In this document: positions 54,454 through 60,426 of the stretch, one piece after another | Numbering within the stretch: position 1 is the stretch's first letter | Layout: each line of letters starts with the position of its first letter | Assembly (NCBI RefSeq): GCF_032678705.1 | Contig: NZ_JAVTSS010000001.1 | Location: 2,232,001-2,296,000 of the forward strand | DNA from: Pedobacter frigiditerrae | GTDB lineage: Bacteria > Bacteroidota > Bacteroidia > Sphingobacteriales > Sphingobacteriaceae | Length of the DNA stretch: 64,000 nt | Direction of reading: 5' to 3' | The notes under the pieces: model-generated | What the model was told of the DNA's origin: nothing | Databases searched by the model: none | The model's input: only the letters and a program-made list of their open reading frames with translations | Made by a program: the position numbers and the translations under genes

Positions 54454-55383
54454 ATGAGATATATTAAATACCTTATTATTTGTAATTTATTGTTTGTATT
54501 TGCAACTAAAAGCCATGCCCAAAATATGGATAACATTACTGCTTTATTAACAGAAGGTTATACCATTGAAGAGTTACACGGATTAACAGATATATTAACT
54601 ATCGACAACCATAGATCTGTGTTGGAAAAAAGGGGATTTAAATATGAAAAAAATGACACCGAAAGCGGTTCTTATGTTTATACGAAAAACGACTATGTAA
54701 GTTTCTATGTAAATTATGAGAAGGGCAAGTTAACCTCTGTTCATTTTAAATCATCACCACAAAAATTCTATAAAGCCATTGCCGAGATTAAGGATAACAG
54801 CAAGTTCACTTACTCTAGCGAAAAGGTCAGTGGAACAGGGAAACTTATTTATTACAAGTATTCAGGACATAGCATGTCTACCAACGATAATTATTATAGG
54901 GTTACCATGTGGCCTAAAGAGGGAACTACAACAAGCAGTTCTTCTACTACAACTCCAACCGCTAGTCCTGTTGCAACTCCAACAACAATAGAAACCTATT
55001 ATTCGGCCAAGGAAATTGCAGATGCAATGAATGCCAACATCACCTCAGCTAATATTGGCTTTGCGAGCCCTAATTATAAATTTGGAGTTAAGGGTAGCAT
55101 GAATATGGATAAACCTTCAATTAGATTTATAACAAGAGATAACGTACTTTATGTGCAAATGAATATTCCAAGAAATGGTGAGTGTGATTATGGATTGAAG
55201 GAAGTAAAAGCAAAATGGACAGGGCAAACGGGCTCTGGCCCCTCTTATTTCTATCTCACATTTGATTACTTGTACAATTGCAATGGCAAGGATTATAAGG
55301 GCGTTTATGTTGATTTTAGACCAAGCTCTTCATTTACAAAAGGAGGTGTTGAGGCATGGGTACAGAAGAACGCCTACAAATAA
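54454..55383 (+). CDS. secreted two-domain protein of unknown function
   Basis: This 309-residue protein starts with a signal peptide (YIKYLIICNLLFVFATKSHAQ). A first domain runs to about residue 155, a Ser/Thr/Pro-rich linker follows (SSSTTTPTASPVATPTT), and a second beta-rich domain has two Cys (GECDYG and LYNCNGKDY) that may form a disulfide. ATG at 54454 starts the signal; an upstream TTG frame adds eight residues. No family is recognised. The upstream inverted site shared with the polysaccharide locus may regulate it. Confidence 0.7.
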   Translation: MRYIKYLIICNLLFVFATKSHAQNMDNITALLTEGYTIEELHGLTDILTIDNHRSVLEKRGFKYEKNDTESGSYVYTKNDYVSFYVNYEKGKLTSVHFKSSPQKFYKAIAEIKDNSKFTYSSEKVSGTGKLIYYKYSGHSMSTNDNYYRVTMWPKEGTTTSSSSTTTPTASPVATPTTIETYYSAKEIADAMNANITSANIGFASPNYKFGVKGSMNMDKPSIRFITRDNVLYVQMNIPRNGECDYGLKEVKAKWTGQTGSGPSYFYLTFDYLYNCNGKDYKGVYVDFRPSSSFTKGGVEAWVQKNAYK

Positions 55384-55430
55384 GATTTTATGTGAAATTT
55401 AATTTTGTTTCAATTATTTTCAAATAGTAC

Positions 55431-55461
55431 TTGACAAATTAAATTCTGATTACTACATTTG
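55431..55461 (+). promoter_or_regulatory. consensus Bacteroidota promoter of the pheA attenuator
   Basis: TTG at 55431-55433 and TACATTTG at 55454-55461 are separated by 20 bases, an excellent match to the -33 TTG / -7 TAnnTTTG promoter. The predicted transcript would begin near 55468, about ten bases before the leader ORF. Confidence 0.75.
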
Positions 55462-55477
55462 ACACCAAGAAAGAAAA

Positions 55478-55540
55478 ATGCAATTAACAAACACATATTA
55501 CTTTGGTTACTTCTACTATTTTAGTAAGAGCCGGGGCTAG
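55478..55540 (+). CDS. Tyr/Phe-rich leader peptide of the aromatic amino acid attenuator
   Basis: A 20-codon ORF starts at ATG 55478 and stops at TAG 55538. It encodes MQLTNT, then YYFGYFYYF, then SKSRG. Eight of nine consecutive codons (55496-55522) are Tyr or Phe (five Tyr, three Phe), far above chance, and it lies directly upstream of pheA. The last codons and stop overlap the antiterminator arm. This is how leader peptides of amino acid operons work: ribosomes stall when charged tRNA-Tyr or tRNA-Phe is scarce. The ORF is too short for usual gene finders. Confidence 0.85.
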   Translation: MQLTNTYYFGYFYYFSKSRG

Positions 55541-55611
55541 TATGCAAAAAGATAGATAAAAATATTAAAATGTATAAAAAAGTCCCGGCCTAAAGCCGGG
55601 ACTTTTTTTTT
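55530..55611 (+). promoter_or_regulatory. transcription attenuator: terminator and competing antiterminator upstream of pheA
   Basis: The terminator stem AAAGTCCCGGC (55579-55589) / GCCGGGACTTT (55595-55605), with a 5-base loop, is followed by a T run to 55611. The terminator's 5' arm (AGTCCCGGC, 55581-55589) can pair instead with GCCGGGGCT at 55530-55538. That segment lies over the last leader codons and stop and copies the 3' arm with one G-U change. A ribosome stalled at the early Tyr/Phe codons leaves 55530-55538 free, so the antiterminator forms and transcription continues. A ribosome reaching the stop hides it, and the terminator forms. Confidence 0.85.
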
Positions 55612-55627
55612 AACGCCAAACGCAATA

Positions 55628-56461
55628 ATGAAAACAAAAACAAGAGTAGCTATTCAAGGTATCAAAGCATCGTTTCACGAAGAAGCTGCATTTAAGTTTT
55701 TTGGTAGAGATATCGAAACCATAGAATGCAATTCATTTAAACAAACTTGCGAAGTTTTAGAAAATGGAAATGCTGATTTTGTAATCATGGCCATAGAAAA
55801 CTCTATAGCTGGTAGCCTTTTACCTAACTACACTTTAATTAGAGAATATAATTTTGCAGTAAGTGGAGAAGTTTACCTACCTATCCAATTGCATTTAATG
55901 GCTTTACCTGGCGTTAAGTTTAAAGATATCAAATTTGCTACCTCTCACCCTATCGCTATTAGACAATGTGTTGATTTTTTTGATGATTACCCAAACATCC
56001 AAGTAATTGAAAGCAGTGATACCGCAGCTTGTGCCAAAAAAATTAGAGATGAGCAGTTAACTGATACCGTTGCCATAGCTAATACCCTAGCAGCAGAATT
56101 ATACGGGTTAAACATCATTGAACGCAGAATAGAATCGAACAAGAAAAATTATACACGTTTCTTAATCCTTCAAAAAGAAAAAATTGAAGACAATAAAGAC
56201 ATTAATAAAGCTTCTATCTGTTTTCAAGTTGGCAACTATGTTGGCGCACTAGCTAAAGTGTTAAACATTTTTGCAGAGCTGAATGTGAACTTAACCAAAA
56301 TCCAATCTATGCCAGTTCTGGGAAAAAGAAACGACTATTATTTCTACATAGACATGGAATGGCAAAATATGGAAAACTACGATACTGCCATCCGTAAAGC
56401 CCTAAAATACACAGTGAACTTTAACATCATGGGCGAATACGAAAAGAACGATAACGTCTGA
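55628..56461 (+). CDS. pheA: prephenate dehydratase
   Basis: This 277-residue enzyme converts prephenate to phenylpyruvate, the branch step to phenylalanine. The catalytic domain shows RVAIQGIKASFHEEAAFKFF, FVIMAIENSIAGSLLPNY, the TRF motif in NYTRFLIL and IANTLAAELYGLNI. A C-terminal ACT domain follows (VGALAKVLNIFAELNVNLTKIQSMP). The usual ESRP of the phenylalanine-binding site reads QSMP here. The gene begins 17 bases after the attenuator T run. No tyrA or aminotransferase follows directly, although many relatives have them here. Confidence 0.93.
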   Translation: MKTKTRVAIQGIKASFHEEAAFKFFGRDIETIECNSFKQTCEVLENGNADFVIMAIENSIAGSLLPNYTLIREYNFAVSGEVYLPIQLHLMALPGVKFKDIKFATSHPIAIRQCVDFFDDYPNIQVIESSDTAACAKKIRDEQLTDTVAIANTLAAELYGLNIIERRIESNKKNYTRFLILQKEKIEDNKDINKASICFQVGNYVGALAKVLNIFAELNVNLTKIQSMPVLGKRNDYYFYIDMEWQNMENYDTAIRKALKYTVNFNIMGEYEKNDNV

Positions 56462-56559
56462 GAAATGTAAGATGGAAAAGGTAAAATGGAACCAGAACAA
56501 TCGGTGAAATCATTTTATCTGTAAAATCAAACGCAAACCGAAAGACATTAATAACAAAT

Positions 56560-56590
56560 CTCAATACGCAATACTCATTACGCAATACTA
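56560..56590 (+). repeat. short duplicated repeat between pheA and the DAHP synthase gene
   Basis: CTCAATACGCAATACTCA and TTACGCAATACTA form two near-identical copies of a (CA)ATACGCAATACT unit. The same unit pair, with one change over 29 bases, lies upstream of aroC at 59306-59336. The rest of the 149-base gap holds no gene. Confidence 0.55.
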
Positions 56591-56610
56591 AAATTTAAAA
56601 TCCCAAAAAA

Positions 56611-57747
56611 ATGAAATTACAATTAAACATCCAGCCTTTAGATAGTTGGATTAACATCAAAAACGAACCTTTATTAATCTCTGGACCTTGTAGTGCAGAA
56701 ACAGAAGATCAATTATTATCAACTGCTCATTTATTAAAAGCAACAGGAAAAGTTAGCGTTTTAAGAGCTGGTATCTGGAAACCACGTACTCGTCCGGGAG
56801 AGTTTGAAGGTATTGGAAGTATCGGTTTACAATGGTTAAAACGTGCTAAAGAAGAAACTGGTTTACCAACAGCAGTTGAAGTTGCAAATGCGAAACACGT
56901 AGAAGAAGCTTTGGCTGCAGGTGTAGATATCCTTTGGATTGGCGCTCGTTCTACCGTAAATCCATTTACAGTTCAAGAAATTGCTGATGCTTTACAAGGT
57001 GTTGATATCCCAGTATTGGTAAAAAACCCTGTAAACCCTGATTTACAATTATGGATTGGTGCTTTAGAGCGTATCAACAAAGCCGGCATTACTAAATTAG
57101 GCGCTATTCATAGAGGTTTCTCTTCATTCGAGAAAAGTGCTTTCCGTAACGAACCAATGTGGGAACTGGCTATCCAATTGAAAACTTTATGCCCTGAGTT
57201 ACCTATCATTAACGATCCAAGTCACATTTGTGGTAACCGTGAGTTAATTCCTTATATCTCTCAAAAAGCATTGGATTTAGACATGCAAGGTTTAATGATT
57301 GAGTCTCACTTAGATCCTTCAGTTGCGTGGACAGATGCTAAACAACAAGTTACTCCAGCTGCATTGGCAGAAATGGTAAGCAAGTTTACTTTACGTCAAC
57401 CAGAATCTAAAAACGAGGAATTCACTGATAAATTAGCTGATTTAAGAAAAGAAATTGATAAAATTGATGACTTGGTATTGCAGAAATTAGCTGAACGCAT
57501 GAGCATCACGCAAAAAATTGGTGAGTTTAAAAGAGATAACCAAGTAACCATTTTACAGGTTAACCGTTGGGATGAAATCATGCAAAAACGTACTTCGTTT
57601 GCTAAAGCGTTAAAATTAGATGTAAACTTTACAGAGAAATTCTTAGAGTTAGTTCACGGAGAATCTATCCGCAGACAAACAGAAATTATGAATGCTGGCA
57701 AAGCTGAAGCAGGAATTGCAGCAGAAGCACATGTGGAAGTAAAATAG
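56611..57747 (+). CDS. bifunctional 3-deoxy-7-phosphoheptulonate synthase / chorismate mutase type II
   Basis: This 378-residue fusion commits carbon to the shikimate pathway and also makes prephenate. The N-terminal DAHP synthase (about residues 1-265) shows LLISGPCSAETEDQL, LRAGIWKPRTRPGEFEG, VLVKNPVNPDLQLWIGALERI and INDPSHICG. The C-terminal AroQ-type mutase (about 275-365) shows LRKEIDKIDDLVLQKLAERM and IGEFKRDN, and ends with ESIRRQTEIM. This fusion order is typical of Bacteroidota. It follows pheA after 149 bases and is likely under the same attenuator unless an internal promoter exists. Confidence 0.95.
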   Translation: MKLQLNIQPLDSWINIKNEPLLISGPCSAETEDQLLSTAHLLKATGKVSVLRAGIWKPRTRPGEFEGIGSIGLQWLKRAKEETGLPTAVEVANAKHVEEALAAGVDILWIGARSTVNPFTVQEIADALQGVDIPVLVKNPVNPDLQLWIGALERINKAGITKLGAIHRGFSSFEKSAFRNEPMWELAIQLKTLCPELPIINDPSHICGNRELIPYISQKALDLDMQGLMIESHLDPSVAWTDAKQQVTPAALAEMVSKFTLRQPESKNEEFTDKLADLRKEIDKIDDLVLQKLAERMSITQKIGEFKRDNQVTILQVNRWDEIMQKRTSFAKALKLDVNFTEKFLELVHGESIRRQTEIMNAGKAEAGIAAEAHVEVK

Positions 57748-57877
57748 TATTGGTTCATTAGTTCATTTGTTCATTGCTTTAGTTGCGATAAGCTTTGTGA
57801 GCTAACCAATACCGATAATAAACAATAAAGGTTTAATATTTCTGGGCAGGTTTGCCCAATGAACTAGTGAACCAATA
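57748..57877. repeat. 20-bp inverted repeat spanning the gap before aroA
   Basis: TATTGGTTCATTAGTTCATT (57748-57767) and its complement with one change (57858-57877) bracket almost the whole 149-base gap, starting at the stop codon's last bases. A small inner hairpin (TGGGCA GGTT TGCCCA, 57843-57858) lies beside the right arm. No gene or T tail is seen. Confidence 0.6.
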
Positions 57878-57896
57878 AACAATTGAACTAAAAATA

Positions 57897-59183
57897 ATGT
57901 CTAAAAACGTATTGCTTTCTTTTACAGGAAACAAACAGATTGATACAGAAATAAAACTAACAGGTTCTAAAAGCGAATGTAATAGAGCTTTGGTTATCAG
58001 CGCATTAAGCAAAGGCTCGGTAAGTGTAGAAAACTTATCTGTTGCCGCTGATACGGTTACGCTTAATAAAGTGCTAAATGAGTTGGGAGGAAAGAGTTTA
58101 GAGTTTGGAAGCGACTCTCAACCCTCAACTCCCAACTCCCAACTGAAAACTGTAGACATCGGTCCCGCTGGGACTGCAATGCGATTTTTAACTGCTTTTT
58201 TAGCGATACAAGATGGTAAGTTCTTTTTAACAGGAACTGAAAGAATGAAGCAAAGACCTATTGGGATTTTGGTTGAAGCTTTAAAAAGTATTGGAGGGAA
58301 TATTTCTTACGAAGAAAATGAAGGATTCCCTCCTTTACAAATTCTTGGCCCTTTTAAACAAACATCAAAAAATGTTAAAATAAAAGGGGATATCAGCAGT
58401 CAATATATTTCTGCTTTATTAATGATTGCCCCTTCTCTCCCACTGGGATTAACGTTAGAAATTGAAGGTGAATTGACATCGAAGCCTTATGTGGAGATGA
58501 CTTTAACGATGCTAGAACAAGTTGGCATTAGAAATGACTGGAATGAAAATACCATCACTATCGAGCCTCAAACTTTTAACAGCGCCAAGCTTTACGTAGA
58601 GCCAGACTGGAGTGCCGCTTCTTATTGGTATTCAATTGCTGCATTGGCTGATGAAGCTTCTATTTTCTTACCAGGATTAAATGGATATAGCCTACAAGGT
58701 GATAGTAAAATCACCGAGATCATGGCAAACTTCGGAATTACCTCTCAGTTTAAAAACGGAGGCGTTTACCTTAAAAAAGAACCTAAACAAATTGAACGTA
58801 AGATTTTCGATTTAAAAGAATGTCCCGATTTAGCGCAAACCATTGTTGTTATTTGTGCAGCTTTAGGTCACGATGCTACTTTTACTGGATTAGAGACTTT
58901 AAAAATTAAAGAAACCAATCGTGTTTTAGCTTTACAAACTGAGTTAGCTAAAATTGGTGTAAAATTTATCGAGAAAAACTTAAGCTATAAATTAGATTGT
59001 TCAGGATTACACTTCCCGGAAAAAATAACAATCAGCACTTACGAAGATCATAGAATGGCGATGGCTTTTGCGCCATTAGCCTTAAAAATCAAACAAGTAG
59101 AAATTGAAGAAAAACAAGTCGTAGAAAAATCTTATCCTTACTTTTGGGATGATTTGGAAAAGGCGGGGTTTAGTATTGCATAG
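57897..59183 (+). CDS. aroA: 3-phosphoshikimate 1-carboxyvinyltransferase (EPSP synthase)
   Basis: This 428-residue enzyme joins shikimate-3-phosphate and phosphoenolpyruvate. Motifs: KLTGSKSECNRALVISAL at the N-terminus, IGPAGTAMRFLTAFLA, GTERMKQRPIGILVEAL, the SSQYISALLMIAPSL region, PDWSAASYWY, LKIKETNRVLALQTEL and the active-site TYEDHRMAMAFAPLAL. A stretch at residues about 62-83 (GGKSLEFGSDSQPSTPNSQL) has no family likeness and is encoded by an inverted-repeat sequence (58080-58145). The frame stays intact through it, so the gene probably still works. The pheA-to-aroC order suggests one transcription unit. Confidence 0.95.
   Translation: MSKNVLLSFTGNKQIDTEIKLTGSKSECNRALVISALSKGSVSVENLSVAADTVTLNKVLNELGGKSLEFGSDSQPSTPNSQLKTVDIGPAGTAMRFLTAFLAIQDGKFFLTGTERMKQRPIGILVEALKSIGGNISYEENEGFPPLQILGPFKQTSKNVKIKGDISSQYISALLMIAPSLPLGLTLEIEGELTSKPYVEMTLTMLEQVGIRNDWNENTITIEPQTFNSAKLYVEPDWSAASYWYSIAALADEASIFLPGLNGYSLQGDSKITEIMANFGITSQFKNGGVYLKKEPKQIERKIFDLKECPDLAQTIVVICAALGHDATFTGLETLKIKETNRVLALQTELAKIGVKFIEKNLSYKLDCSGLHFPEKITISTYEDHRMAMAFAPLALKIKQVEIEEKQVVEKSYPYFWDDLEKAGFSIA
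58080..58145 (+). repeat. in-frame repeat insertion within aroA
   Basis: GAGTTGGGAG (58080-58089) is the exact complement of CTCCCAACTC (58129-58138), which is itself part of the tandem CTCAACTCCCAACTCCCAACT. Such sequence is usually intergenic in Bacteroidota. Here it lies inside aroA, in frame, adding about 22 residues just before the conserved VDIGPAGTAMR. Confidence 0.65.
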
Positions 59184-59305
59184 TGCTTTAAGTATAGCGT
59201 AGTGCGATGTGCGTATAGAGACAAGTAGGCGACGCATACGACAAAACACGTGCAACTAAATATATCTTGAAAAATTATTAATAAAATATCACTAGGTACA
59301 GTATC

Positions 59306-59336
59306 GCAATACGCAATACTCAATACGCAATACTAA
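59306..59336 (+). repeat. short duplicated repeat upstream of aroC
   Basis: GCAATACGCAATACTCAATACGCAATACTAA is broken here for reading: GCAATACGCAATACT, then CAATACGCAATACTAA. It matches 56560-56590 with one change. A decayed inverted copy appears at the aroA 3' end (GTATTGCATAGTGC, 59174-59187). The 157-base gap holds no gene. Confidence 0.5.
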
Positions 59337-59340
59337 CAAC

Positions 59341-60426
59341 ATGGCAGGCAATTCATTCGGTAAATTATTTAAAATCACAACTTTTGGCGAATCACATGGT
59401 GTGGCTATTGGCGTTATCATTGATGGCTGTCCAGCTGGATTAACAATTGATACCGATTTTATCCAATCAGAATTAGATAAACGTAAACCTGGTCAATCTA
59501 AAATAACCACACAACGCAAGGAGAGTGACATTGTTCAAATCCTTTCTGGAACGTTTGAAGGTAAAAGTACAGGTACACCCATCAGTTTGTTAATTCCGAA
59601 TGAAGACCAACGTTCTAAGGATTATGGGCATAATGTAGATGTATATCGTCCTTCTCATGCAGATTATACTTACGATGCAAAATATGGCATCCGTGATCAT
59701 AGAGGTGGTGGACGTTCTTCGGCTCGTGAAACTGCAGCTCGTGTAGCAGCAGGTGCAATTGCTAAATTATTTTTGAAGGAAAAAGGAATTGAAATTTTTG
59801 CTCACGTTACTGCAGTAGGACAAATTAATGCACCAAACTTTAATTCGAATAACTTAGCAGAAGCATTAAATATTAGAGAGGAAAATATAGTACGTTGTGC
59901 TGATCCAGCAACGGCTAACCAAATGATAGACTTTATTGATTCGGTTAGAAAAGATGGAGATACCGTTGGAGGTAAAGTTGGCTGTATCATTAAAAATTGC
60001 CCGGTAGGTTTAGGAGAACCAGTTTTTGATAAACTACATGCAGATTTAGGAAAAGCCATGCTAAGCATTAATGCCGTTCACGGATTTGAGTACGGCTCTG
60101 GTTTTGCAGGTAGCGAAATGAGAGGGTCTGAACATAACGACGTTTTCCTAGCAGGAGATAAACCTAAAACACTCACTAATTATTCAGGAGGCATACAAGG
60201 TGGGATTTCTAACGGGATGGATATTACATTTATTACCGCTTTTAAACCAGTAGCTACAATTATGCATAACCAGCAAACAATAAATGCTGCTGGTGAAGCT
60301 GCCGAAATTAAAGGCAAAGGTCGTCATGATCCATGTGTAGTACCTAGAGCGGTGATTATTGTAGAAGCCATGGCAGCTTTGGTTTTAGCTGATCATTTGT
60401 TAAGACAAAGAAGTAATCGTTTGTAA
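59341..60426 (+). CDS. aroC: chorismate synthase
   Basis: This 361-residue enzyme makes chorismate from EPSP using reduced FMN. All three family signatures are visible: [18 protein letters not shown] near the start, [21 protein letters not shown], and the C-terminal [21 protein letters not shown]. Full length, with no breaks. It is the last shikimate gene of the cluster. A 182-base gap follows that holds TTCATTGGTTCATTAGT-type repeats and no gene. Confidence 0.97.

Follow-up and report, generated by a model that had tools for sequence, protein, structure and literature searches.

The leader peptide of Escherichia coli pheA is rich in Phe codons, and in the thr and ilv operons of E. coli one leader reads several related amino acids. 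Attenuation by such leaders requires ribosomes to move close behind the polymerase. Predicted attenuators in Bacteroidetes, among other groups, are reportedly to be found in Vitreschak 2004 and Lopatovskaya 2010.

Within the literature on such leaders in Bacteroidota we found only PMC9723704, PMC7366714 and PMC4833913 to be relevant. The section of PMC9723704 on pheA describes a structured 5' element that precedes this gene in Flavobacterium psychrophilum and is common to genera of the Flavobacteriaceae, and a passage of the same paper reports 'strong clues' that amino acid operons of F. psychrophilum are preceded by leader-peptide attenuators, with no Rfam hit. That element resembles the one analysed here in its gene, its phylum and its transcribed, structured 5' region, whereas the section that describes it contains no Tyr/Phe/Trp leader, alternative pairings or spread over the class. 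For Bacteroides thetaiotaomicron, the main text of PMC7366714 reports sORFs in long 5' UTRs and calls them reminiscent of attenuation leader peptides; they belong to other genes, and pheA is unmentioned in that text. In the main text of Naville and Gautheret 2010 no leader peptide is given as shown outside Proteobacteria and Actinobacteria, and neither Bacteroidetes nor pheA is mentioned. Related pheA 5' elements are already in print for Flavobacteriaceae, and the mechanism considered here is classical ribosome-mediated attenuation. The view of the initial annotation that attenuation has seldom been worked out in Bacteroidota needs tempering to this extent, as the relevant sections of PMC9723704 had already reported a pheA 5' element and clues to leaders. 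In the literature searched there is no description of an aromatic pheA leader or of its spread over the class, the older Bacteroidetes predictions lying outside that search.

The pheA locus described here lies in a window of 64,000 nucleotides, the whole stretch of DNA that was analysed. It shares with the enteric pheA leader (RF01859) a Phe-rich leader, alternative hairpins, a terminator and pheA downstream. It differs in its mixed Tyr/Phe(/Trp) codons and in the predicted control of DAHP synthase, aroA and aroC as well, and from the multi-amino-acid thr and ilv leaders of E. coli in having aromatic amino acids as its predicted inputs. We consider it very probable that this locus is a ribosome-mediated transcription attenuator that responds to charged tRNA-Tyr and tRNA-Phe, to which tRNA-Trp is added in most close relatives, and that controls pheA-aroF-aroA-aroC.

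Layout of the locus and its promoter

The promoter, leader ORF and terminator proposed in the initial annotation can all be read directly in the DNA (Table 1), and direct reading likewise confirms a 20-codon ORF in which eight of nine codons specify Tyr or Phe (codons 7-15, TAT TAC TTT GGT TAC TTC TAC TAT TTT). The PheA encoded downstream is 99% identical to that of a Pedobacter MAG and 98% identical to that of Pedobacter frigiditerrae, so the window belongs to a Pedobacter-like genome, that of a soil-type bacterium.

Table 1. Features of the probable pheA attenuator locus and operon, in window coordinates.
Feature	Position	Strand	Basis
Promoter -33 element, TTGACA	55431..55436	+	Read directly; TTG 17-20 bases before the -7 element in 72/80 rows
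Promoter, Bacteroidota-type -7 element, TACATTTG	55454..55461	+	Read directly; TAnnTTTG before the leader in 78/80 rows
Leader ORF, MQLTNTYYFGYFYYFSKSRG*, 20 codons (ATG at 55478; stop TAG at 55538-55540)	55478..55540	+	Present in 79/79 testable loci
Segment 1, region of codons 6-12 (ACA TAT TAC TTT GGT TAC); protector with segment 2	55494..55511	+	Minimum-energy fold, pair counts, codon 8 linkage
Segment 2, AGAGCCGGGGCTAGTATGCA; spans leader end and stop codon; partner is 1 or 3	55527..55546	+	Folds, pair counts
Segment 3, TGTATA then terminator 5' arm GTCCCGGCC; partner is 2 (antiterminator) or 4 (terminator)	55571..55591	+	Fold, pair counts
Intrinsic terminator (3:4), arms 55576-55589 and 55595-55608, T run to 55611	55576..55611	+	Hairpin and T run in 80/80 rows
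pheA, prephenate dehydratase (start ATG at 55628)	55628..56461	+	PF00800 above its cut-off
DAHP synthase/chorismate mutase (named aroF here)	56611..57747	+	Below NCBIfam cut-offs; adjoins pheA in 81/81 rows
aroA	57897..59183	+	Family search, neighbourhood in relatives
aroC	59341..60426	+	Family search, neighbourhood in relatives

The TTG of the promoter is spaced 20 bases from TACATTTG, which has the form TAnnTTTG that we take to be the Bacteroidota-type -7 consensus. A sigma-70-like promoter score alone is not significant (35 found versus 38.2 expected). Counts of TAnnTTTG across relatives are better evidence for a promoter: 78 of 80 rows have the motif at most 90 bases ahead of the leader, as against 83 of 1580 random pieces that contain it, and 72 of these 78 rows have a TTG 17-20 bases upstream of it. 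In the window 16 bases separate the end of the -7 element from the leader ATG, and among the 78 rows with such an element the distance is 4-30 bases in 62; given this closeness, the transcript probably starts about 10 bases before the leader start codon. No Shine-Dalgarno sequence is seen before the leader ORF, and Bacteroidota are not known to make much use of Shine-Dalgarno initiation. When the whole genome was scanned with the promoter and leader DNA, the other matches were terminators, together with one promoter-like stretch located before thrA, and were set aside.

Conservation of the leader peptide

A PheA scan yielded 80 loci, mostly from Pedobacter, of which 79 were testable after one with only 144 bases upstream (L026) was left out. 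In all 79, pheA is preceded by a leader ORF in which at least six of nine codons are aromatic, and a hairpin with a T run comes after the ORF. Codons 7, 8, 12, 13 and 14 are aromatic in each of the 71 ungapped leaders of the same length, and codons 9, 11 and 15 in 69, 69 and 64 of them. The third positions of codons 12-14 are T or C only in these 71 leaders, so that Tyr and Phe identity is preserved; judged from the alignment, the aromatic residues are maintained despite third-position drift. Variation is lower at codon 7 and in the segment 1 codons, third positions included, as would be expected of codons that also pair. The initial annotation had looked to relatives for a conserved leader and conserved Tyr/Phe codons, and the comparison bears out both.

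Chance occurrence of such an ORF is rare. The criterion of at least six aromatic codons in nine picks out 42 of 57 Bacteroidia pheA upstream regions. Such an ORF turns up in 19 of the 1140 sequences made by dinucleotide shuffling, in 8 of the 564 pieces taken downstream and in none of the 57 reverse strands. With the threshold lowered to at least five in nine the background rises, to 121 of the 1140 shuffles and 6 of the 57 reverse strands.

Alternative folds and compensatory change

The minimum-energy fold of positions 55462-55615 consists of two hairpins (z = -4.78, with 0 of 200 shuffles as stable). The first pairs segment 1 (55494-55511, with TAT TAC TTT GGT TAC) with segment 2 (55527-55544), and the second is the 3:4 terminator. 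If the 3' arm of the terminator is removed, segment 2 pairs with segment 3 (z = -5.31, again with 0 of 200 shuffles as stable), aided by an inner helix between TATGCA and TGTATA. This 2:3 fold upholds the earlier proposal that a segment over the leader stop codon (GCCGGGGCT, 55530-55538) can replace the terminator 3' arm. The initial annotation had also claimed the full logic of attenuation; it correctly described 2:3 and 3:4 and missed the 1:2 protector found in the minimum-energy fold. As computed, the four-segment switch is complete, with 1:2, 2:3 and 3:4 all present.

A simple terminator scan reported the 3:4 hairpin on the minus strand only. Rfam gave 42 weak matches in positions 55300-55800, none at gathering score and most of them to the terminator. 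For a T-box or metabolite riboswitch, too, no Rfam family reached its gathering score in this interval; Thr_leader (RF00506, 29.9 bits against a gathering score of 55) matched the terminator alone, and Phe_leader (RF01859) scored 24.3 bits against 55.

Pairing was counted in an alignment of 80 rows, 78 of them distinct. In the terminator 96.3% of cells are paired and two-sided changes occur in 29 cells, versus 3.1 in shuffles. The corresponding values for the 2:3 antiterminator are 88.4% and 14 cells versus 3.0, a count depressed by the shifted alignment of some distant rows. For the 1:2 protector they are 91.1% and 5 cells versus 5.5, with no excess, and it is the codon 8 linkage described below that alone appears to lend this pairing comparative support. 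The compensatory changes in both pairings to which the initial annotation had looked are present, and are shared by segments 2, 3 and 4. Six rows (L015, L028, L046, L047, L054 and L072) jointly carry A for G in segment 2, T for C in segment 3 and A for G in segment 4, with two changes each on the PheA tree. A further six (L067, L070, L075, L079, L081 and L085) jointly carry C to G, G to T and C to A in the same three segments, with one change each on the tree. Swapping partners between loci makes 2:3 and 3:4 weaker on average and leaves the control pair 1:3 indifferent.

A Trp codon and its RNA partner

The initial annotation had described a leader of Tyr and Phe codons. This is correct for the window species, in which codon 8 is TAC, but 52 of the 80 close rows have a Trp codon too; in 51 of the 71 leaders of equal length this is codon 8. 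A TAC there gives the protector a computed energy of -9.8 kcal/mol with GGGACT and -14.0 kcal/mol with GGGGCT, while TGG gives about -14 kcal/mol with either. The segment 2 base opposite codon 8 is A in 49 of the 52 Trp rows; among 27 Tyr rows it is G in 13, A in 9 and C in 5, several of these last being from lineages with a different segment 2. Codon 8 and this base each change 8 times on the PheA tree. Across the alignment, then, the codon read (Trp or Tyr) is linked, although not perfectly, to the segment 2 base, the number of independent events being uncertain.

Spread over Bacteroidia

We searched for prephenate dehydratase in two sets of 148 genomes, one from the phylum and one from the class, and read the stretch upstream of pheA in 58 Bacteroidia genomes, including one (G315) picked for its model match. 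A leader with at least five aromatic codons in nine is present in 46 of the 58 (45 of 57 without G315), representing 16 of 21 families, and one with at least six in 43 of the 58. All 46 leaders contain both Tyr and Phe and 19 also contain Trp, aromatic richness being the sole trait common to the peptides across Bacteroidia. A terminator was detected by set criteria after 38 of the 46 leaders and not after the other 8; in 36 of these 38 the pairing between the stretch that follows the aromatic codons and the terminator 5' arm is better than in 95% of base shuffles.

No leader was found by the scan in 12 of the 58 Bacteroidia genomes. In four leaderless genomes (G012, G095, G076 and G111) another gene ends at most 30 bases before pheA, and all five genomes of one family (f44) are leaderless. 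Outside the class, an aromatic leader was found in 0 of the best 28 of 95 genomes with a match (maximum 4 in 9), which may be richer in G+C. A covariance model reached the pheA genes of other families. Weak matches of this model, in 120 of the 296 genomes, were discounted, many probably being plain terminators: three of those inspected lack an aromatic leader, and another feature, the end of a cold-shock-like ORF, lies under one of them. The comparison indicates that the same device, in much changed form, is located before pheA across much of Bacteroidia.

The operon and the probable source of tyrosine

In close relatives pheA is followed by DAHP synthase/chorismate mutase in 81 of 81 rows, aroA in 80 of 81 and aroC in 77 of 81, with three of the four aroC misses being contig ends. 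The intergenic gaps in the window are about 150 bases long (56462-56610, 57748-57896 and 59184-59340) and narrower in many relatives; a simple scan found no plus-strand terminator in any of the three.

The suggestion in the initial annotation that the downstream genes serve both branches holds only in part. The operon is pheA-DAHP synthase/chorismate mutase-aroA-aroC, and neither family nor protein searches found TyrA in the window's genome. At class level tyrA is near pheA in 38 of 58 stretches, the commonest order being pheA-aminotransferase-tyrA-aroF (27 of 58), and it is near pheA in none of five genomes of the window's own family. Among 24 other genomes of the genus examined (two of them less than 90% complete), full-length TyrA is present in 2 and absent in 22. 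All 13 genus genomes examined for it, the window's included, encode a divergent protein, about 600 residues long, that contains two pieces of the biopterin-dependent hydroxylase family. A biosynthetic role for phenylalanine hydroxylase has been argued from fitness data, including data for the Bacteroidete Echinicola vietnamensis, in the relevant part of PMC7311316. In this genus Tyr is probably made from Phe by the phenylalanine-hydroxylase-like protein, whose activity is putative; this would explain the presence of Tyr codons before a phe operon.

Proposed mechanism and alternatives

From these parts we infer that the leader is translated, that the ribosome can stall on it, that stalling selects between termination and read-through, and which amino acids are effective. 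Transcription would begin just upstream of the leader, with a ribosome trailing the polymerase. With Tyr or Phe in short supply the ribosome would stall on codons 7-14 and mask segment 1, leaving segment 2 free to pair with segment 3 as it emerges; no terminator would then form and the operon would be read. With Tyr and Phe plentiful, the ribosome would reach the stop codon inside segment 2, 3:4 would form and transcription would end near 55611. In the absence of a ribosome, 1:2 plus 3:4 is the most stable computed fold, so the default state would be off.

Modelling a ribosome that covers 18 bases before the A-site codon and 14 from it, we find that 2:3 forms in full with the A site at codons 7-14, forms less at codons 15-18 and is absent at codons 19-21, with similar results for the window and for the Trp-bearing L018. 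When no ribosome is present, 2:3 is preferred over 1:2 as long as segment 4 has yet to be transcribed. In the full transcript at equilibrium the terminator is favoured at every ribosome position, and on this ground we rejected equilibrium folding as a model of the switch. Given both results the switch must work kinetically, with its outcome set by timing. Timing also decides the outcome in known attenuators.

The same switch could in practice respond to one amino acid only, Phe or Tyr, if the codons of the other rarely stall the ribosome to the same effect or its tRNA is never short. The Tyr and Phe codons are interleaved and so inseparable by sequence alone, as this version would allow. We nevertheless think it unlikely, given that both residues occur in the leaders of all 80 close rows and of all 46 at class level, that Tyr codons 7 and 13 never change, and that modelled stalls at codons 7-14, at both residues, all favour 2:3.

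The peptide itself could act, either as a nascent-chain arrest peptide or as a small protein in trans, and residues beyond the aromatic run (G10 and SKSR) are indeed strongly conserved in the close set. However, this conserved tail overlaps segment 2, where the bases are constrained by pairing, and the peptides of Bacteroidia are alike in aromatic richness only, which makes an acting peptide improbable. Still further from our expectation, to the point of being scarcely credible, is that the hairpin is the ordinary terminator of the upstream gene beside a chance aromatic ORF, without regulation. The hairpin is strong and similar hairpins occur elsewhere in the genome, but the promoter and leader sit between it and the upstream gene, the same layout recurs in each of the 79 testable loci despite differing upstream genes, and the shuffles show how rarely an ORF of this kind arises by chance.

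If the locus is an attenuator responding to charged tRNA-Tyr and tRNA-Phe, Bacteroidota would gain a well-supported case of attenuation. An unannotated leader gene present in many genomes would be tied to the control of aromatic amino acid synthesis, with predicted input rules of Tyr, Phe and sometimes Trp. We advance more tentatively, as a possibility that we do not yet favour, a broader reading in which an ancient Bacteroidia attenuator responds to Tyr, Phe and Trp alike, at the point where their pathway branches. It would operate without a Shine-Dalgarno sequence on a transcript starting about 10 bases before the leader, its RNA would co-evolve with codon swaps (Tyr replacing Trp at codon 8 as G replaces A in segment 2), and its Tyr codons would have been kept where tyrA was lost. 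In that event the operon would, in lineages without tyrA, answer to an amino acid that is made only indirectly.

Other leader peptides in the genome

Outside the window, L005 (G000:C2, about 1431314) has a Thr/Ile leader, MIFNNSIITTTTTLTTGKSLMGKR, and a terminator before thrA, and L204, L205 and L206 likewise have Thr/Ile leaders and a terminator before thrA; in a relative the leader is MIFNTSIITTIIITTGINQRG. These resemble the enteric thr leader. A His-rich leader, MIQVLNHHVHLHHRHCGDR, precedes hisG at L229 (before G000:C1:449546-450004, minus strand, outside the window) and is alike in relatives; no terminator was found there by set criteria. At L241 (before G000:C2:1075969, outside the window) a leader with two Trp codons, MISNKTNTWQWRGNSQKSFVVALCTL, and a terminator precede trpE, with similar trpE leaders in relatives L242-L245 and L247. 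The presence of these three further leader peptides (thr, trp and his) besides that of pheA suggests that attenuation is a general strategy in this genome.
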